From: Phycisphaerales bacterium | Lineage (GTDB): Bacteria > Planctomycetota > Phycisphaerae > Phycisphaerales > UBA1924 | DNA: 64,000 nucleotides | Direction: 5' to 3' | Assembly: GCA_040221175.1 (NCBI GenBank) | Contig: JAVJVK010000004.1 | Location: forward strand, 728,268 to 792,267 | Shown: positions 37,132-45,692 of the stretch, piece after piece | Layout of the letters: every line of letters starts with the position of its first letter | Position numbering within the stretch: position 1 is the stretch's first letter | Made by a program: the position numbers and the translations under genes | Notes under the pieces: generated by a model | Told to the model about the DNA's origin: nothing | Database searches by the model: none | The model's input: the letters and a program-made list of their open reading frames with translations, nothing else

Positions 37132-39975
37132 ATGCATTCGAAGATGGGACTCTTGCTGGCGTGCGGATTGGCGATCGGTCTGGCTGCGACGGGGCACGTC
37201 CATGCCGACCAGGCGTCGTCAACGCCCGCCGTGGCCGTGCAGCGGGCAGCGGACGATGCGCCCCCGACGCTGACCTTCAACGGGCGCCCGTTCCACGAGG
37301 CGGCCGGCTCGGTGCTCGATCTCGAGCAGGCGCGCGTTCCCGGCAGTGATGCCGTGCTTGTTTCCTGGAAGGAAGCGACTTCGCGCGGCCAGATCGGCTA
37401 CAGCGCCATCTCGCTACGAGGCGAGCGGATCGACCGCGTGGCACCCAGCGAGAACACCATTCGTCTGCGGTATGCCGAGTTCGACCCCGACGTGTTCACG
37501 CCCGCCATTCCCGGCGAACTGGCGGCGGTCCCGGGCAATGATGCCTACATCGTGCAGTTCATCGGCCAGCCCGTGTGGGCGGCTGATCAGGCACTCGAGG
37601 CCGCCGGCGCCACGATCCTCCGCCCGCTGCACGACCACGCACGCATCGTGCGGATGGAGCCCGACGCGAAGGCAGCCGTCGAGGCGATGGGCATCGTCCG
37701 CTGGGTTGGCGCGTATCACCCGGCGTACAAGCTCGAAGAAGAGATCCTCCAGCCCCTGATGCTCGGTGGCACGTTTGCGGGTACGGCCTCGCGCTATTCC
37801 ATCGAGTTGTTGACCGACGGCAATGCCGCCATGGACCGCATGGTGCGCATCATCGAGGGCATGGGCGCCACGGTTGAACTGACCGTGCCGCAGGTCGGCC
37901 GGCTCGAGGCCAACCTCACGCCCGCTCAGATCTTCTCGGTTGTTGCGGACAGCGACGTGCTGTTCATGGACCGCTGGCAGGCTCCCGAGACGGACATGAG
38001 CATCGCCCGCGCCATCGGCGGAGCAAACTACATCGAGGGCATCACCGGCTTCTCGGGCGAGGGCGTACGCGCCGAAGTCATGGACAGCGGCATCCGCCAG
38101 GATCACCAGGAGTTTTCGGCACGACCTCCGTTGATGCACACGAGTTCGAGCATCGACAGCCACGGCACCAGCACGTACAGCATCAACTTCGCCCAGGGCG
38201 CCTCGGGCGTTGCGCGGGGCATGGTGCCCGATGCGCAGGGAATCTTCGCGAGCTACAACTTTGCCGGCAACCGGTACTCGCACACCGCCCAGTTGATCAA
38301 CCCGACGTTGCCCTTCCGAGCCGTCTACCAGTCCAACAGCTGGGGCAGCGGCCTGACGACCAGCTACACCACCAGCAGCAGCGAGATGGACCGGATCATC
38401 TTCGATCAAGACATCCTCATCACCCAGAGCCAGTCCAACCAGGGCAGCCAGCAGTCGCGTCCGCAGGCCTGGGCGAAGAACATCGTGTCGGTCGGCGGCG
38501 TGTTCCACCGCAACACGCTTTCCAAGTCCGACGATTGCTGGTGCGGCGGCGCAAGCCGTGGGCCCGCCTCCGACGGACGCATCAAGCCCGACCTGACGCA
38601 CTTCTACGACTTCACCCGGGCGGCGACCAGCTCCAGCCGCACCGCGTACACCGAGTTTGCCGGCACCAGTGGCGCCACGCCCATCGTGGCGGGCCACTTC
38701 GGCCTGCTGTTCCAGATGTGGAGCGAGGGCGTCTTCGGCAACCCGACCTCGGGCGGCGACGTGTTCGATGAGAAGCCTCGCTTCACCACCGCCAAGGCCA
38801 TGATGATCGCCTCGGCGGAACCATACAACTTCAGCGGTTCGAGCATCGCCAACGACAAGGCTCGCGTGAAGCAGGGCTGGGGCATGCCCGATCTGGCGGC
38901 GCTCTACGACAGCCGCGACAGCGCGTTCATCGTGAACGAAGACGACGTCATCCAGGAACTGGACGTGGCGACCTACCCGCTGAAGGTGGCCGCCGGAACG
39001 CCGGCTTTGCGCGCCACGCTCACCTGGGCCGATCGCCAGGGCACGACCTCCAGCACCGTGCACCGCATCAACAACCTGGATCTGCGCGTGACTTCGCCCA
39101 GCGGCCAGGTGTACTGGGGCAACGCCGGGCTGAACGCGGGCATCTGGAGCACGACGGGCGGATCGGCCAACACGGTCGACACTGTCGAGAACGTGTTCAT
39201 CCAGAATCCCCAGGCCGGTACGTGGACCGTGGAGGTCATCGCCGCCGACCTGAACACCGACGGTCACATCGAGACGGGCACGCGCGATGCGGACTTCGGC
39301 TTGGTGGTGCTGGGCACCGACGGCCTGGCTGCAGCGTTCGAGCTTCCCTTCGAGGACGACTTCCCCGAACTCGCGCTCGACACCGAAAAGTGGATCGAGG
39401 TATCGGGCAGCGTGGCGCCGACGTCGCTGGGCCAGAACCCGCCGAGCGAGCCCTACAGCGTGCTGCTGCTGAACGATGCGACGATGGCCTCGACCCGGAT
39501 CAACGTGCCCGCGTCGCTGCTGCCGTCCATGCCCGTCGAGGTCGCCTTCCACAGCCAGCATCGTGGAGTGGAGAGTGGCAAGGTGCTCGACGTGGACTAC
39601 TACAGCGGCTTCTTCGGAGAATGGCGCGACCTGACCGAGATCGTGTCTGACGGCAACGATCAGTCGACCTTCGTCGCAAGCGCGACCGAGATTCCACTGG
39701 ATGCTTACGGCGATGAGTTCCGCGTTCGCTTCGCGACGCCCGGGAGCGATGCCACCGACCAGTGGTACGTCGACGACGTGCGTGTCCGCGTCATCAGCGA
39801 TGACCCGACCTGCCGGGCCGACCTGGATGGCGACGGCAATCTGACCATCTTTGATTTCCTGGAGTTCCAGAACCTGTTCGACCAGGGCGACCCGCTGGCC
39901 GACTTCGATGGCGACGGCGTCCTGAACATCTTCGACTTCCTGGCATTCCAAAACGAATTTGCGATGGGCTGCTGA
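37132..39975 (+). CDS. Secreted S8 (subtilisin-like) serine peptidase with GC-type dockerin C-terminus
   Basis: 947 residues; GGAGGT lies 7 bases before the ATG. A signal peptide (about 1-25) and a propeptide-like N-terminal region come first. The S8 triad is visible: Asp in 'RAEVMDSGIRQDH' (about 317), His in 'SIDSHGTSTYS' (about 343) and Ser in 'FAGTSGATPIVAGH' (about 512). A beta-sandwich P-domain-like region follows ('LRATLTWADRQGTTSSTV'), then another beta domain. The C-terminus has the dockerin-like pair 'ADLDGDGNLTIFDFLEF' and 'ADFDGDGVLNIFDFLAF', ending MGC. It is an extracellular protease, probably tethered at the surface. It is monocistronic with a strong terminator. The 173-base leader has a CGCGGGC/GCCCGCG hairpin near 37028-37043. 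Confidence 0.93.
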   Translation: MHSKMGLLLACGLAIGLAATGHVHADQASSTPAVAVQRAADDAPPTLTFNGRPFHEAAGSVLDLEQARVPGSDAVLVSWKEATSRGQIGYSAISLRGERIDRVAPSENTIRLRYAEFDPDVFTPAIPGELAAVPGNDAYIVQFIGQPVWAADQALEAAGATILRPLHDHARIVRMEPDAKAAVEAMGIVRWVGAYHPAYKLEEEILQPLMLGGTFAGTASRYSIELLTDGNAAMDRMVRIIEGMGATVELTVPQVGRLEANLTPAQIFSVVADSDVLFMDRWQAPETDMSIARAIGGANYIEGITGFSGEGVRAEVMDSGIRQDHQEFSARPPLMHTSSSIDSHGTSTYSINFAQGASGVARGMVPDAQGIFASYNFAGNRYSHTAQLINPTLPFRAVYQSNSWGSGLTTSYTTSSSEMDRIIFDQDILITQSQSNQGSQQSRPQAWAKNIVSVGGVFHRNTLSKSDDCWCGGASRGPASDGRIKPDLTHFYDFTRAATSSSRTAYTEFAGTSGATPIVAGHFGLLFQMWSEGVFGNPTSGGDVFDEKPRFTTAKAMMIASAEPYNFSGSSIANDKARVKQGWGMPDLAALYDSRDSAFIVNEDDVIQELDVATYPLKVAAGTPALRATLTWADRQGTTSSTVHRINNLDLRVTSPSGQVYWGNAGLNAGIWSTTGGSANTVDTVENVFIQNPQAGTWTVEVIAADLNTDGHIETGTRDADFGLVVLGTDGLAAAFELPFEDDFPELALDTEKWIEVSGSVAPTSLGQNPPSEPYSVLLLNDATMASTRINVPASLLPSMPVEVAFHSQHRGVESGKVLDVDYYSGFFGEWRDLTEIVSDGNDQSTFVASATEIPLDAYGDEFRVRFATPGSDATDQWYVDDVRVRVISDDPTCRADLDGDGNLTIFDFLEFQNLFDQGDPLADFDGDGVLNIFDFLAFQNEFAMGC

Positions 39976-40032: not shown

Positions 40033-41351
40033 CATGGCTCAGCCGAGATCGCCAGGCGGCGGCGCAATGCCTCGACCGCCGCGTCGATGTCACGCCGATC
40101 CTCGAGTTGCTCGATCGTCGCCTCGGCCTTGCGAGCGAACAAATCGAGTTGACGCCTGATCGCCGAGATGCGGTCCGGCTCATCGGTGCGGTCAGCCACC
40201 ACCGCCAGACCCTCCACCAGAGCCCGGAGCGTGGCGACGTTTCCGCCAGCATTCTGCCGGATCTGATCGAAGGCGTTACCAAGCAGGGTCTCGAAGTCCG
40301 GCCGTATGGCGATGAAACGAACCTGTCCGTTCTCGGCACGGTACTTCGAGGGCATCTTCCGCCCGGCAATCTTGGCCATGATTGCCGTCAGGTGCTCCGT
40401 GCAACTGACCGCCGTCGTGGTGTCGTTGATCCCCGGGCTCAGGGCCTTGATAGCCATATCCACGATCTGCCGGATGCCATAGCTTGCGTCCTGCACGATC
40501 GTGCGCTGCCCGCCGATGACGAAGTACCCGTTGATCGTCTTGCGGGTCTCGTCGTCGGGTTCGGCGGCATTGGCGAGCGATACGAGCGGCGAACCCTCCA
40601 CGATGAAGTGCCCGACGGGGCACTCCATGCGGACGACACACCCACGATCGCAAGCATGCTTCACCAGGCCGTCGCCATCCACGGATTGGAGGTAGCCCGT
40701 CTTGGGCGCTGCAATCGACCGCCACGTGGTGTCGTCGGCCGGCAGAGGCGGTCGCACGGCCTCGGCTGGCTGAGCAACACGCTCGGGGAACAGGCGGTCG
40801 ACCGCCGCAAGCGTCTCGCTCGTGGCCGCAAGGATGATGTGCTCGGCCTGGATGGCCTGGGCGATGTGGTGGATGAAGAAGATCAGGCACGCGATGCCCA
40901 CCAGCGCGAGCAGCACGGCGGCCAGGATCGCGAAGATCGGTACGAAGCTGTAGTCGTCGCCCTCGCTGATGGTCCTCAGCACCCACAGGCAATACACGAA
41001 GATGCCCACGAACGCGCCCAGGACGGCCTGGTTCGCCCGGTCGCGCATGAAGTTGCGCAGGATCCGGCTGGTGTACTGGCTCGACGCCAGGGTCAACGCG
41101 ACGATGGTGATGCTGAAGGCAACCCCTGCGACGGAGATCATCGAACCGGCAATCGTCGCCAGCAGGCTGCGGGCCCCCGACGGCCCGACGGCGAAGAGCC
41201 GGGGCAGTGCCTCCTCGAACCGCTCGATCGGCAGGAGGTGATCGAGTTCGATCATCCCCTGAGCCAGCAGGATGGCCCCCAGCACGAACAGCGAGGGTAC
41301 GAACCACAGGCTGGAGCGAAGGGCGTCCCAGAGCAGGCGAAGGTGTCGCAT
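40032..41351 (-). CDS. DUF2254 domain membrane protein
   Basis: 439 residues. The N-terminal ~180 residues have four hydrophobic segments ('LWFVPSLFVLGAILLAQG', 'GVAFSITIVALTLASSQYTS', 'AFVGIFVYCLWVLRTI', 'LLALVGIACLIFFIHHIAQA'). The soluble part has 'GYLQSVDGDGLVKHA', 'GQRTIVQDASYGIRQIVDMA' and 'ALSPGINDTTTAVSCTEHL', matching DUF2254, a widespread family of unknown role. The start at 41351 is the first in-frame ATG and lies about 95 bases from the short ORF upstream of the lys operon, so the two are divergent and may share a promoter region. Confidence 0.88.
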   Translation of the reverse strand: MRHLRLLWDALRSSLWFVPSLFVLGAILLAQGMIELDHLLPIERFEEALPRLFAVGPSGARSLLATIAGSMISVAGVAFSITIVALTLASSQYTSRILRNFMRDRANQAVLGAFVGIFVYCLWVLRTISEGDDYSFVPIFAILAAVLLALVGIACLIFFIHHIAQAIQAEHIILAATSETLAAVDRLFPERVAQPAEAVRPPLPADDTTWRSIAAPKTGYLQSVDGDGLVKHACDRGCVVRMECPVGHFIVEGSPLVSLANAAEPDDETRKTINGYFVIGGQRTIVQDASYGIRQIVDMAIKALSPGINDTTTAVSCTEHLTAIMAKIAGRKMPSKYRAENGQVRFIAIRPDFETLLGNAFDQIRQNAGGNVATLRALVEGLAVVADRTDEPDRISAIRRQLDLFARKAEATIEQLEDRRDIDAAVEALRRRLAISAEP

Positions 41352-41463
41352 CGACGCAACGGTACACCGGCCGACCCACCGGATGAGGCCGCCGCGTTCA
41401 TGCCAGCCGCAAACTTCCGCTCAACCGCTTGACTCTCCTGAGCCGATGGGGATCATTGAGCAC

Positions 41464-41547
41464 ATGAGCCGCCGCCACGCCATTTCGCTGAAAGCCAAAG
41501 CCAAGGGGAACAAACCCTCCGGCGACGGTCGCGTGCGCGTCCGCTAG
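41464..41547 (+). CDS. 27-residue Lys/Arg-rich ORF upstream of the lysW operon, candidate leader peptide
   Basis: ATG 41464 encodes 27 residues: 'MSRRHAISLKAKAKGNK', then 'PSGDGRVRVR' and a TAG stop. It has four Lys codons within eight (AAA GCC AAA GCC AAG GGG AAC AAA) and five Arg codons, in a peptide followed 25 bases later by a terminator and then the lysine/arginine-type LysW operon. An in-frame ATG at 41446 would add six residues. The ribosome binding site is weak, and TTGACT at 41429-41434 is a possible -35 without a good -10. It may be a regulatory leader peptide or a small basic protein; translation has not been shown. Confidence 0.5.
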   Translation: MSRRHAISLKAKAKGNKPSGDGRVRVR

Positions 41548-41583
41548 ATCCACCTTGCAATCGAAATCGCAAGGCTCGCCGGA
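41518..41583 (+). promoter_or_regulatory. Candidate antiterminator pairing in the lysW leader
   Basis: TCCGGCGA (41518-41525, inside the short ORF just after its Lys codons) is exactly complementary to TCGCCGGA (41576-41583) in the 5' arm of the following terminator. This pairing would destroy the terminator stem. Another small hairpin (41554-41573, CTTGCAAT/ATCGCAAG with one mismatch) lies between. The layout matches ribosome-mediated attenuation. The 8-base match could be chance in GC-rich DNA. Confidence 0.45.
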
Positions 41584-41604
41584 ACCCTTCCGGCGAGCCT
41601 TTTT
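41573..41604 (+). terminator. Strong intrinsic terminator directly before lysW
   Basis: A perfect 12-bp stem (GGCTCGCCGGAA with TTCCGGCGAGCC), a 3-base loop and a T5 run end 36 bases before the lysW start. The gap holds the lysW ribosome site (AAGGAG, 41628-41633) but no room for an ordinary promoter, so lysW expression appears to depend on read-through. Confidence 0.85.
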
Positions 41605-41640
41605 CGTCGTGTCTTTCTGCATTTCTGAAGGAGCCTCAGC

Positions 41641-41862
41641 ATGTCCCAGGTCACCACACCCACCACGCCCCCCACCACGCCGGCGCCCGAGACCATCACC
41701 GCCACCTGCCCCGAGTGTGGCTCGACCATCACGTTCGCCCGGGCGCCACGCCGCCACGAACTCGTCCGCTGCCCGGACTGCGGAGCCGAACTTGAGGTCA
41801 CCGACGTGTCGCCCATCACGCTGGCGCTGGCCCCCGAAGTCGAGGAAGACTGGGGCGAGTAA
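41641..41862 (+). CDS. lysW: Amino-group carrier protein LysW
   Basis: 73 residues. The N-terminal zinc-ribbon pairs 'ATCPECGSTITFARAP' and 'VRCPDCGAELEV' are intact, and the protein ends in the diagnostic 'EDWGE', whose terminal Glu gamma-carboxylate carries the alpha-amino group of the growing intermediate. It protects aminoadipate (lysine) or glutamate (arginine/ornithine) during synthesis. An unusual Thr/Pro-rich N-terminal extension ('VTTPTTPPTTPAPET') precedes the ribbon. AAGGAG lies 7 bases upstream. First of five genes lysW-X-Y-Z-K and placed directly behind the terminator. Confidence 0.95.
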   Translation: MSQVTTPTTPPTTPAPETITATCPECGSTITFARAPRRHELVRCPDCGAELEVTDVSPITLALAPEVEEDWGE

Positions 41863-41890: not shown

Positions 41891-42766
41891 ATGCATTTGA
41901 CACTCCTACACACCCGCATCCGCATCGAAGAACGCCTGCTTCTCGACGAGTTCGAACGTCGTGGCATCGACGTCGAACTCGTGCACGCCGACGAGGCCGT
42001 CATCGACCTCACCCGGCAGCATGAGCCCGCCAGCGAACCCCACGTACTCCTGGACCGCTGCCTCAGCCATGCCAGGGCGTTCGCCATCGTGCGAGCCTAC
42101 GAGAGCCGTGGCGCGATCTGCCTGAATCGATCGAGCGTCACGCACGCTTGCGGCGACAAGCTGCAAACGACACTCGCCCTGACCGACGCGGGGGTCCCCT
42201 CACCACGGACCGTTGCGGCGTTCGGAGCCGACGGGGCCGTTCGGGCAGCCGACGCGCTGGGCTACCCCGTCGTCATCAAGCCCTGCGTTGGCTCGTGGGG
42301 ACGCATGGTGGGCCGATTGAATGATCGGGACGCGCTCGAGGCGGTGCTCGAACACAAGCTGGCTCTCGGCGGACCGCAGCACGGGGTGGTGTACCTCCAG
42401 GAGTTGGTGCGCAAGCCCGATCGCGACATCCGTGCGTTCGTCGTGGGCGGGCAGACCATCGCCGCGATCATGCGGCACAGCCAGCACTGGATCACCAATA
42501 CCGCCCGTGGTGGACGCGCAGAGGGATTGCCCGTCACGCCCGAACTCGACGACATCTGCCAACGCGCGGCTTGTGCGGTGGGTGGCGACGAGCAGAGCCT
42601 GCTGGCCATCGACCTGATGGAATGCCCCGAGCGCGGCTTACTCGTGTGCGAGGTCAACTCAACCATGGAGTTTCGCAACTCGATCGACACCACCGGCGTC
42701 GATATTCCGGGACGGATCGTCGATCAGGTCGTGCGCGTGGCCGAAGCCCGGGCGGTGGTGGCGTGA
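41891..42766 (+). CDS. lysX: LysW ligase LysX (ATP-grasp)
   Basis: 291 residues, RimK-like ATP-grasp ligase joining alpha-aminoadipate (or glutamate) to the LysW C-terminus. Seen: 'VIKPCVGSWGRMVGRLND' (ATP-binding loop), 'QELVRKPDRDIRAFVVGG' and 'NTARGGRAEG' near the active site, 'LLVCEVNSTMEFRNS' (metal-binding Glu/Asn). Start ATG 41891 lies 28 bases after lysW. The stop overlaps the GTG start of lysY (GTGA). Motifs that separate LysX (lysine) from ArgX (arginine) were not decisive to me, so substrate remains open. Confidence 0.93.
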   Translation: MHLTLLHTRIRIEERLLLDEFERRGIDVELVHADEAVIDLTRQHEPASEPHVLLDRCLSHARAFAIVRAYESRGAICLNRSSVTHACGDKLQTTLALTDAGVPSPRTVAAFGADGAVRAADALGYPVVIKPCVGSWGRMVGRLNDRDALEAVLEHKLALGGPQHGVVYLQELVRKPDRDIRAFVVGGQTIAAIMRHSQHWITNTARGGRAEGLPVTPELDDICQRAACAVGGDEQSLLAIDLMECPERGLLVCEVNSTMEFRNSIDTTGVDIPGRIVDQVVRVAEARAVVA

Positions 42767-43791
42767 GCGTTCGCGTCGGCATCATCGGAGGCGCGGGATA
42801 CACGGGAGGAGAGCTCCTGCGACTGCTGACGATGCATCCTCACGCCACCATCGCCTGGGCAACGTCACGCGGCCGGGCCGGCTGGCCAATATCGGCCGTC
42901 CACCCGAACCTCCGGGGCGTACTCGATCTTTCGCTCTGCGACCCAGCGGATGTTGAACCGGTCGACGTCGTCTTCTTGTGCCTGCCGCACGGCGAAACGG
43001 CGGGCAACATCGAGGCATACGCAAGCCTTTCCCACCGCGTGATCGACTTGAGCAGCGACTTCCGACTTCGCAGCGCCGACTCGTACGAACGCACGTATGG
43101 CCAGGCCCACGCGGCGCCGGCGTGGCTCGATCGCTTCGTGTATGGATTGCCCGAGGCGCATCGCGAGCAACTCGCAGACGCCCGATACGTCAGCGGCGTG
43201 GGATGCAACGCCACGGCCATGAACCTGGCGTTGCTTCCACTGGCACGAGCCGGCGTGATCGATCGCGTCATTGCCGACGTCAAGGTCGGTTCGAGCGAAT
43301 CGGGGGCCGAGCCGAGCGCCGCGAGCAATCACGCCGAGCGAAGCCACGCCCTGCGCACCTTCGCCCCGGTATCGCACCGACACGCGGCCGAGGTGGAACA
43401 GGCTTGCGGCACGTTTCCGCTGCACGTGACGGCGACGACCACGGATTTGGTTCGCGGCGTGCTCGCCACGTGCCACGTCCTGACCAGCCGTGAACTGACC
43501 GAACGCGACGCGTGGCAGCTCTATCGGGATGCGTATGCCGACGAGCCATTCGTACGCATGGTGAAGGAACGTCGCGGCCTGTATCGCCTGCCCGAGCCAA
43601 AGATCCTCGCGGGCACCAACTATGCCGACGTCGGCTTTGCCATCGAACCGGGCGCCAATCGCATCGTCGCGCTGTGCGCGATCGACAACCTGGGCAAGGG
43701 CGCCGCCGGCAGCGCCATCCAATCCATGAACCTGGCCTGCGGATTCGATGAAACCGCGGGCCTGACGTTTCCCGGGTTGCACCCGGTCTAG
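42763..43791 (+). CDS. lysY: LysW-linked phosphate semialdehyde dehydrogenase LysY (ArgC-like)
   Basis: 342 residues with a GTG start overlapping the lysX stop. Homologue of N-acetyl-gamma-glutamyl-phosphate reductase: NADP-binding 'VGIIGGAGYTGGELLRLL', catalytic Cys in 'YVSGVGCNATAMNLAL', 'FAPVSHRHAAEVEQACG' and C-terminal 'AIDNLGKGAAGSAIQSMNLA'. It reduces the LysW-bound acyl phosphate to the semialdehyde. Next to lysW and lysX it belongs to the carrier-protein pathway and not the acetylated one. Confidence 0.93.
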   Translation: MSVRVGIIGGAGYTGGELLRLLTMHPHATIAWATSRGRAGWPISAVHPNLRGVLDLSLCDPADVEPVDVVFLCLPHGETAGNIEAYASLSHRVIDLSSDFRLRSADSYERTYGQAHAAPAWLDRFVYGLPEAHREQLADARYVSGVGCNATAMNLALLPLARAGVIDRVIADVKVGSSESGAEPSAASNHAERSHALRTFAPVSHRHAAEVEQACGTFPLHVTATTTDLVRGVLATCHVLTSRELTERDAWQLYRDAYADEPFVRMVKERRGLYRLPEPKILAGTNYADVGFAIEPGANRIVALCAIDNLGKGAAGSAIQSMNLACGFDETAGLTFPGLHPV

Positions 43792-43800
43792 GAGCGCACG

Positions 43801-44601
43801 ATGATCGTGATCAAGATCGGTGGAGCCGAGGGAATCGGCCCCCGGCACGCATGCGAAGACATCGCAGCGCTCGCTGCAACGGGCCAGCCCATAGTCGTAG
43901 TCCACGGTGGCTCTCATGAGACCAACCAACTTAGCGAGAGGCTCGGGATCGAGCCCCGCTTCATTACCAGTCCCAGCGGACACGCGAGCCGATACACCGA
44001 CGAGGCGGCCATCGACGTATTCCAGATGGCCTGCTGCCGGCTGAATGCTCGCATCGTTCGCATGCTGCGTGAGATGGGCGTCGATGCCGTCGGCCTGAGC
44101 GGCATCGACGGCGGGCTGTGGGCCGCGCGACGCAAGGGCGCGATCCGGGCGATCGAGAACGGCGTCACCACCGTCATTCGCGACGATCACAGCGGAACGA
44201 TCGAGCGCGTCGACTCGGCCATGCTCGAAGCCCTCTTGCGGCTTGGCAAGACGCCGGTGCTCTGCCCACCGGCCATCGGCCGGGAATGCGAGCCGTTGAA
44301 CGTCGACGCCGATCGGGCCGCGGCGATGACGGCCGCGTCGCTCCGCGCCGACTCGCTCGTGATCCTCTCCAACGTGCCGGGACTGCTGCGCGCGTTTCCC
44401 GACGAGTCGTCGCTCATTCCCAGCCTGTCGCGAGGAGAGTTGGAGAGCGCCATCGAACTGGCCCAGGGTCGGATGAAGCGAAAGGTCATCGCCGCGGGCG
44501 AAGCAATTGACGCCGGTGTCTCGCGCGTTATCTTGGCCGATGCACGCCGGGAACGTCCGATCACGCATGCCCTGCAAGGGCAGGGGACATGTGTTACATG
44601 A
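43801..44601 (+). CDS. lysZ: LysW-aminoadipate/glutamate kinase LysZ (ArgB-like)
   Basis: 266 residues, amino-acid kinase family. Seen: 'MIVIKIGGAEGIG' (phosphate-binding Lys-Gly-Gly), 'IVVVHGGSHETNQLSERLG', 'VGLSGIDGGLWAARRK', 'LNVDADRAAAMTAASLRAD' and 'GRMKRKVIAAGEAI'. Phosphorylates the gamma/delta carboxylate of the LysW-bound substrate. Nine bases follow lysY, and its last 4 bases (ATGA) overlap the lysK start. Confidence 0.93.
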   Translation: MIVIKIGGAEGIGPRHACEDIAALAATGQPIVVVHGGSHETNQLSERLGIEPRFITSPSGHASRYTDEAAIDVFQMACCRLNARIVRMLREMGVDAVGLSGIDGGLWAARRKGAIRAIENGVTTVIRDDHSGTIERVDSAMLEALLRLGKTPVLCPPAIGRECEPLNVDADRAAAMTAASLRADSLVILSNVPGLLRAFPDESSLIPSLSRGELESAIELAQGRMKRKVIAAGEAIDAGVSRVILADARRERPITHALQGQGTCVT

Positions 44602-45692
44602 ACATCGTAAACGAACAGCACGCGATCGAACTGCTGCAAGACCTCGTGCGCACGGCAAGTCCGTCCGGACATGAACACGAGGCCGTCCTGCTGCTCGTGC
44701 AGCGCATGTCGGCCCTGGGCTTTCGCGCCGGCATCGACCCAGCCGGCAATGCCGTCGGCGTGATCGGAAGCGAGGCGCCCGACGCCACGGAGATCCTGCT
44801 GCTCGGACACATCGACACCGTGCCGGGCCACATCCCGATTCGCGTTGAAGATGGCGCGCTCTGGGGCCGAGGCTCTGTCGATGCGAAGGGCCCCCTTTGT
44901 GCATTCGCTGTTGCGGCGGCCACGGCGAAGATCGCCCAGGACACCCGCCTGGTTGTCATCGGCGCCGTCGGAGAAGAAACGCCTTCTTCGCCCGGCGCGT
45001 CGTACGCCCGCGATCACTACCGACCCGACGCGTGCCTGATCGGCGAACCCAGCGGATGGGAGCGCTTCGCCATTGGCTACAAGGGCCGCCTGATCGTCCG
45101 CGCGCTGTTCGAGCAGGCGGCGGGCCATTCCGCGGGTCCGGTCGGCTCGGTCGCCGAGGCCGCAATCGACTGGCATCGCCGAATGACATCGTCGATCGCA
45201 GAATGGAACATCGGCCACGAAGGGCTGTTCGAAACGATCCAGCCAAGCCTCCAGGCGTTCAACACCAATTCGGATGGCCTGCGCGACTCAGCGAGCCTCA
45301 TCCTGGGCCTGCGTCTGCCCACGTGGGCGAAGCCCGAAGACATCGAGGCACGGATCCGCCGAAGTTCACCGGACGTGTCGCTCTCGTTCCACGGCCACGC
45401 GGCCGCGCACCGCGGCCCGCGCACGGGCGAAGTCCCCAGTGCGCTTTCGGCTGCCATCGGGTCGCTCGGCGGACGCCCCACCGCAACGGTGAAGACCGGC
45501 ACGAGCGACATGAACACGGTTGCAACCACGTTCGGCTGCCCCATCGTGGCGTATGGCCCCGGGGACAGCACGCTCGACCATACGCCGCACGAACGCCTGG
45601 ACCTACCCGAGTATCTTCGTTCCATCGAGGTACTGCGTCACGCGATCCCTCAAATCGCAGCCGCCTTCAGCCCCGAACGCTGTGCATCATGA
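44598..45692 (+). CDS. lysK: LysW-lysine/ornithine hydrolase LysK (M20 family)
   Basis: 364 residues from ATG 44598, which overlaps the lysZ stop as ATGA; ATG 44589 is possible. Zinc-dependent hydrolase that releases the finished amino acid from LysW. Seen: 'LLGHIDTVPGHIPI' (His, Asp), 'LWGRGSVDAKGPLCAFAVAA' (bridging Asp), 'VIGAVGEETPSSPGASY' (Glu-Glu), 'CLIGEPSGW' and 'VAYGPGDSTLDHTPHERLDL' (His). The aminotransferase step (LysJ) is not encoded in this window. The last 26 bases overlap the convergent pdxJ gene. Confidence 0.92.
   Translation: MNIVNEQHAIELLQDLVRTASPSGHEHEAVLLLVQRMSALGFRAGIDPAGNAVGVIGSEAPDATEILLLGHIDTVPGHIPIRVEDGALWGRGSVDAKGPLCAFAVAAATAKIAQDTRLVVIGAVGEETPSSPGASYARDHYRPDACLIGEPSGWERFAIGYKGRLIVRALFEQAAGHSAGPVGSVAEAAIDWHRRMTSSIAEWNIGHEGLFETIQPSLQAFNTNSDGLRDSASLILGLRLPTWAKPEDIEARIRRSSPDVSLSFHGHAAAHRGPRTGEVPSALSAAIGSLGGRPTATVKTGTSDMNTVATTFGCPIVAYGPGDSTLDHTPHERLDLPEYLRSIEVLRHAIPQIAAAFSPERCAS

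Follow-up and report, generated by a model that had tools for sequence, protein, structure and literature searches.

Bacterial amino-acid genes may lie under a conditional terminator, as they do with the lysine riboswitch and the T-box. A Lys leader-peptide attenuator has reportedly been described for the lys cluster of Thermus thermophilus (Tsubouchi and others, in 2005); in that system a Lys-coding leader is reported to stand before lysine genes of the alpha-aminoadipate/LysW type, and in this it is like the locus described here. The trp, his, leu and thr leader attenuators of enteric bacteria are alike as well, with a short ORF in which codons for the regulated amino acid stand in a row, with three pairings that overlap, with a terminator before the first gene, and with a strong codon bias (PMC1183508); our locus differs from them in that the amino acid would be lysine, not Trp, His, Leu or Thr, and in that it belongs to another phylum. 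The histidine leader peptides of hisS and hisZ in bacilli are likewise a find of comparative genomics outside the Proteobacteria, although the amino acid, the genes and the phylum are different; the 2010 survey that reports them states, in its available text, that leader-peptide systems were previously found, besides its own finds, only in Proteobacteria and Actinobacteria (PMC2965389). We found no description of a lysine leader attenuator for lysW operons or for Planctomycetota in the literature that we searched: this kind of attenuator is already known, and its lysW-operon, planctomycetal case is without an earlier description in that literature.

We analysed a stretch of 64,000 bases (the window) and found, upstream of a lysWXYZK operon, what is very probably a lysine-specific, ribosome-mediated transcription attenuator. 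The putative switch shows, in sequence, three features of a leader-peptide transcription attenuator (a cluster of codons for one amino acid, a predicted terminator and a conserved antiterminator pairing), and the original prediction, which had read the region in this way, is supported by a Lys run that recurs in the family, by the terminator, and by pairing that is specific to each locus. Such a switch would give the Planctomycetota a codon-sensing attenuator, along with an extensive natural collection of leaders that covary. The operon (forward strand) comprises lysW, for the amino-group carrier protein (41641-41862; TIGR01206, 68.5 bits, cut-off 53.2); lysX, for the LysW ligase (41891-42766; TIGR02144, 316.7 bits; motif EVNSTMEF); an argC/lysY reductase gene (42760-43791, start approximate; TIGR01850, 348.9 bits); lysZ, for [LysW]-aminoadipate kinase (43801-44601; NF010659, 354.6 bits, cut-off 223); and lysK, for [LysW]-lysine hydrolase (44589-45692; NF003367, 401 bits, cut-off 363). 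Upstream of the leader there is a DUF2254 gene in the opposite direction. The window also contains, at 37132-39975, secreted-protein genes that share a C-terminal tail of the DGDG..FDFL.FQ..FD.GC type, and in G132 and G083 (L033 and L034) the end of a gene for a secreted protein with a DGDG tail lies close upstream of the leader.

The leader ORF (forward strand) runs from the ATG at 41464 to the TAG at 41545-41547 and has 27 codons (MSRRHAISLKAKAKGNKPSGDGRVRVR); four Lys within eight codons, plus five Arg, can be read directly in the sequence, as had been predicted. The putative regulatory Lys codons, AAA GCC AAA GCC AAG, are located at 41491-41505, and a further AAA is located at 41512-41514; in the family comparison described below, Lys is the amino acid in clear excess. 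A search of the whole 3.44-Mb genome for a second Lys leader, using the pattern AARGCNAARGCNAAR (one spelling), returned a single occurrence, at this leader, and none besides. The ORF had originally been started at another in-frame ATG, at 41446; we rejected this start as probably unused, since that ATG falls within the predicted promoter, between its -35 and -10 boxes, and is replaced by ATA in G083 and G134. The predicted promoter is sigma-70-like (41429-41456, forward strand), with a -35 box TTGACT (41429-41434) and a -10 box GATCAT (41451-41456; by consensus match) that ends 7 nt before the ATG at 41464, and it is the sole promoter-like site in 41300-41700. Among 61 relatives, the best-match promoter scores at least 9 in 25 (compared to 2.6% of shuffles), and 11 relatives were left without an acceptable promoter in the same scan. 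In 22 out of 48 measurable cases, 7-12 nt separate the -10 box from the first ATG or GTG in frame, so the message may be leaderless or nearly so; in contrast to the enteric attenuators, there would probably be no 5′ untranslated stretch, or a very short one. The ribosome site of the ORF, which had been noted as poor and held against it, may simply reflect such a start, judging from the spacing to the predicted -10 box.

A predicted terminator hairpin (41571-41604, forward strand; loop CCC) follows the ORF, its arms being assigned from the fold and from the comparison of hairpins in the family: segment 3 is the 5′ arm (41571-41584), and segment 4 (41588-41604) consists of the 3′ arm (41588-41601) and the T tract (T5, 41600-41604). 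The stem, first described as a perfect 12 bp, has 14 pairs when A-U pairs are counted, and the T5 run is present as described; a simple consensus scan missed this 14-bp hairpin and reported, as the sole terminator-like site, a weaker 7-bp variant at 41591-41609. The distance from the T tract to the lysW ATG is 36 nt (41605-41640), exactly as predicted, and includes the lysW ribosome site (AAGGAG, 41628-41633), which is outside the hairpin. Segment 2, the putative antiterminator strand (TCCGGCGA, 41518-41525, forward strand), is the exact complement of TCGCCGGA in the terminator 5′ arm (41576-41583); the original prediction had this eight-base match right, and had also worried that it could be due to chance, a worry that is borne out for the window alone, where the pairing is not significant (shuffle P = 0.115), but not for the family, where the locus-specific pairing exceeds chance (see below). 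The evidential weight for the proposed switch is in the family comparison, not in the window sequence alone. A weak predicted hairpin (41504-41518; four pairs, -4.7 kcal/mol) spans segment 1 and reaches into the beginning of segment 2. With the ribosome stalled, CCTTGC at 41553-41558 is predicted to pair with GCAAGG at 41569-41574, and this second stem, conserved among six aligned genus members except for one base in G023, would make the foot of the terminator arm part of the antiterminator. The whole leader folds slightly better than its shuffles (z = -1.55; 16 of 200 shuffles are equally good).

In the mechanism that we infer, which extends from the promoter and start through stalling, termination and read-through to the response to lysine, the promoter just upstream would drive the leader, and the leader's ribosome would meet the AAA/AAG Lys codons. 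When Lys-tRNA is ample, the ribosome would cross segment 2, or its release would let the hairpin form over segment 2; with segment 2 so occupied, segment 3 would pair with segment 4, and transcription would end before lysW. When Lys-tRNA is scarce, the ribosome would stall on the Lys run, covering about 10 nt beyond it and leaving segment 2 free; the free segment 2 would then capture segment 3 ahead of the synthesis of segment 4, and the polymerase would read through. A weak point raised originally was that 41518-41525 would not be directly covered once the ribosome has reached the stop codon. This need not be fatal: the segment is inside the ORF, about 12 nt past KAKAK, so an unstalled ribosome would translate across it, and a released one would permit the hairpin over it.

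We compared the leader with other lysW loci of the same family. Of 93 genomes, 92 were counted as lysW-bearing (79 above the cut-off; G120, with a partial lysW match of 22.5 bits, was dropped), and the upstream DNA covered 88 of them, leaving out G046, G052, G140 (missed by the LysW pattern), and G153. The first set had 62 loci, genus members included, with dinucleotide shuffles as the control, and the 26 further loci, mostly from genera already seen, served as a held-out set. An upstream ORF with at least three Lys in eight codons precedes lysW in 83 of the 88 loci examined: 60 out of 62 in the first set, compared to 4.8% of the dinucleotide shuffles, and 23 out of 26 in the held-out set. The loci that lack the run are G045 and G089 (one genus) and G133, with two Lys; G125 and G126 fail the test because they are cut by contig ends. 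In the 62 loci the mean number of Lys codons is 3.48 (about 1.2 in shuffles), that of Arg codons is no higher than in shuffles (2.53 versus 2.63), and Ala codons are mildly raised (3.05 versus 2.19), because Lys and Ala codons alternate; of the lysine/arginine sensing suggested at the outset, the lysine part is thus supported and the arginine part is not. Outside the Lys run, the length and the residues of the leader vary across the family, and conservation is poor. A predicted hairpin with a U-tract (-15 kcal/mol or better, at least five T in the next 10 bases, and no more than 180 nt from lysW) is found in 60 out of 62 loci and in 4.2% of the shuffles; at -20 kcal/mol, the corresponding values are 45 out of 62 and 0.6%. 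The end of the terminator is 34 to 108 nt from lysW (median 54 nt). Conservation in relatives, on which the original prediction had staked itself, is seen for all three elements: the ORF, the terminator and the locus-specific complementarity recur family-wide. The locus of G133 (L139, same genus) has a degenerate leader with two Lys codons and yet a strong hairpin before lysW.

For the pairing tests we used 61 of the 62 loci (L063, without a terminator, was left out); in each, the stretch of RNA that follows the final Lys codon was scored for pairing with the terminator 5′ arm of the same locus and of other loci. Complementarity to the own arm peaks 12 nt past that codon, at -13.5 compared to -10.4 for exchanged arms; at other distances the score is near -7 for own and exchanged arms alike. 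When arms were permuted among 36 loci, one for each genus, the own pairing scored -17.68 and the permuted pairing -14.05 (sd 0.48), none of 20,000 permutations reached the own value, and two subsets of 18 loci behaved alike. The held-out set (24 of 26 loci entered) gave -17.51 for own and -12.70 for permuted arms, again reached by none of 20,000. Leader choice gives AAA a weight of 1.2, so Lys-rich frames are favoured by design; the permutation test is independent of this weight. A weaker test, based on shuffles of the individual segments, gives P of 0.05 or better in 32 of 61 loci and of 0.01 or better in 13; a run of seven pairs is found with own arms in 46 of 61 loci, and with exchanged arms also in 32% of cases. 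The paired strands change together, being TCCGGCGA/TCGCCGGA in the window, CGTCCAAGG/CCTTGGATG in G031, GGCCCGGG/CCCGGGCC in G055, and GTGTCCGGG/CCCGGACAC in G017.

The antiterminator strand starts at a median of 12 nt past the run's final Lys codon (within 9-15 nt in 38 of 57 cases). A ribosome whose A site holds that codon would shield about 10 nt downstream of it, so that the strand stays free while the RNA just in front of the strand is covered. The stop codon is located at a median of 45 nt past the Lys run, so segment 2 is inside the ORF, which distinguishes these leaders from the enteric attenuators. With the ribosome masked to +10, the predicted folds contain a helix between segments 2 and 3 of at least 5 bp in 61 of 61 loci (39 of 61 when the ribosome is left out), and with segment 2 hidden they contain the terminator in 61 of 61, in a comparison that ran without a shuffle control. 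A stem of at least 5 bp that would hide segment 2 is predicted in 38 of 61 loci and in 28.5% of shuffles (the window has 4 bp only), and a hairpin hiding the antiterminator strand has only moderate support in the family. At the level of sequence, then, the family has a Lys run, a predicted terminator, and locus-specific complementarity between segments 2 and 3 at a fixed distance.

Four other readings of the locus were weighed. The ORF could encode a small functional basic protein with a terminator of its own, and lysW could have another promoter: identity of the peptide is 69-82% in four out of five matched genus members (84% in the fifth, over a shorter stretch), and genes commonly end in hairpin terminators. 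We rejected this reading, which is very unlikely, because a Pfam search of the peptide matched no family and because the family keeps the Lys run only, while length and other residues vary; the locus-specific RNA pairing kept beside the Lys run also argues against it, as does a consensus scan that found no promoter-like site in the 36 nt before lysW. Nor is it at all likely that the switch acts mainly on translation or through Rho instead of by intrinsic termination, a reading for which G338 (L151), outside the family, speaks: there a short ORF with five Lys in eight codons is located 51 nt before lysW and no terminator was found, possibly with another mode of control. Within the family, the hairpin and U-tract in 60 out of 62 loci, and a lysW ribosome site that in the window is outside the hairpin, make it highly improbable.

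The remaining two readings concern the signal. The switch could answer arginine, given the five Arg codons in the leader, three of which close the peptide in five out of six aligned genus members, and given that LysW pathways can make ornithine; argG is present in this genome and argJ was not found there. Arginine sensing was nevertheless rejected and seems extremely unlikely, since the family as a whole shows no excess of Arg codons, the terminal Arg codons follow segment 2 (stalling there would hide segment 2 and favour termination), and LysX carries a LysX-type motif. A metabolite- or tRNA-binding RNA (lysine riboswitch or T-box) could also control a terminator through an alternative pairing, the ORF being incidental; however, Rfam covariance models gave no family at gathering score in the 64,000-base window, for which we rejected this possibility, and it would account neither for the in-frame Lys run (83 of 88 loci) nor for the 12-nt spacing to segment 2, so that we give it almost no credence. 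The attenuator proposed here, unlike those RNAs, would sense lysine through the codons of an ORF that is translated.

The evidence on what the operon makes points both ways. The LysX motif EVNSTMEF is close to the EVNHTMEF of a solved lysine-biosynthesis enzyme (1uc8, 3vpd) and unlike the ELNDVPEF in 3vpb, which is named as ArgX in the available text of PMC10433800. Counting genomes by lysW and lysA, we found both genes in 12, lysW only in 80, lysA only in 34, and neither in 37; lysA is thus rarer with lysW (12/92, compared to 34/71 of the others; Fisher p = 1.3e-6, ignoring kinship). An operon for arginine only was considered and set aside as the less likely case: the LysX motif and the distribution of lysA both speak against it, though not decisively. 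The lysW, lysX, lysZ and lysK models and the LysX motif all fit lysine; however, we sought homocitrate synthase, isopropylmalate synthase, lysA and argJ in this genome and found none, and its only PF00682 (HMGL-domain) protein is an HMG-CoA lyase (G000:C7:80656-81522, L125). With a recognisable homocitrate synthase and lysA absent, it is therefore not certain that the operon makes lysine. Among the 92 lysW-bearing family genomes, homocitrate synthase is over the cut-off in 19, and neither homocitrate synthase nor lysA is over the cut-off in 61, including this one; in G057, homocitrate synthase is encoded directly after lysK, which favours lysine as the product. Four of those 61 genomes (G009, G019, G042, and G070) have argJ, and LysW is therefore not needed for arginine there. 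The leader and LysX nevertheless look lysine-type, and we offer only tentatively the idea that the attenuator guards a lysine route without a recognisable homocitrate synthase, with alpha-aminoadipate coming via a novel enzyme or from outside, or that an operon which by now makes ornithine has retained its lysine sensor. The proposed switch also points to an unexplained gap in the lysine metabolism of the family. A second aconitase-family protein, of about 659 residues, is encoded in this genome (G000:C15:779-1981; L130 and L131).

We also looked for the leader beyond the family. The named relatives among the matches listed are metagenome-assembled Phycisphaeraceae and Phycisphaerales. From 392 genomes sampled from the phylum, 17 extra-family lysW loci were fetched and 16 scanned (L149 was not parsed): the Lys run is absent in 14 of these 16, and the whole leader arrangement is present in G492, which belongs to another family of the order. 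A wider set consisted of the best 80 of 574 lysW loci, of which 11 were not parsed and nine were of the window's own group. In the other groups, mostly Chloroflexota, 17 out of 60 parsed loci have at least three Lys in eight codons (8.8% expected), and 12 out of 60 have at least four (1.5% expected). Several of the 17 Lys-rich ORFs are probably chance occurrences, as 5.3 are expected, and the one in L216 reads the end of lysW out of frame. For 15 other-group loci with a Lys-rich leader before a terminator, the own pairing scores -15.96 and the permuted pairing -13.83, and 11 of 20,000 permutations reach the own value.

The leaders and the genes of the family differ in their choice of Lys codon. 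Ten genes in the window use AAA three times and AAG 73 times, and lysX-like ORFs use AAA 15 times and AAG 118 times, whereas the Lys codons of the leaders are 198 AAA and 18 AAG when the leader frame is chosen without weights (205 and 7 when the choice slightly favours AAA). Chloroflexota leaders, in contrast, prefer AAG (59 AAG, nine AAA); AAA is therefore not required by the proposed mechanism. A strong codon bias in attenuation leaders has been explained, in the available text of PMC1183508, by selective charging of tRNA isoacceptors, and the opposite preferences seen here, AAA in the family's leaders compared to AAG in its genes and in the Chloroflexota leaders, would provide a sharp test of that theory. 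Chloroflexota leaders with a run of AAG Lys codons before a hairpin terminator are found in L185, L207, L223, L229, L234, L235, L245, L249, L253, and L256.
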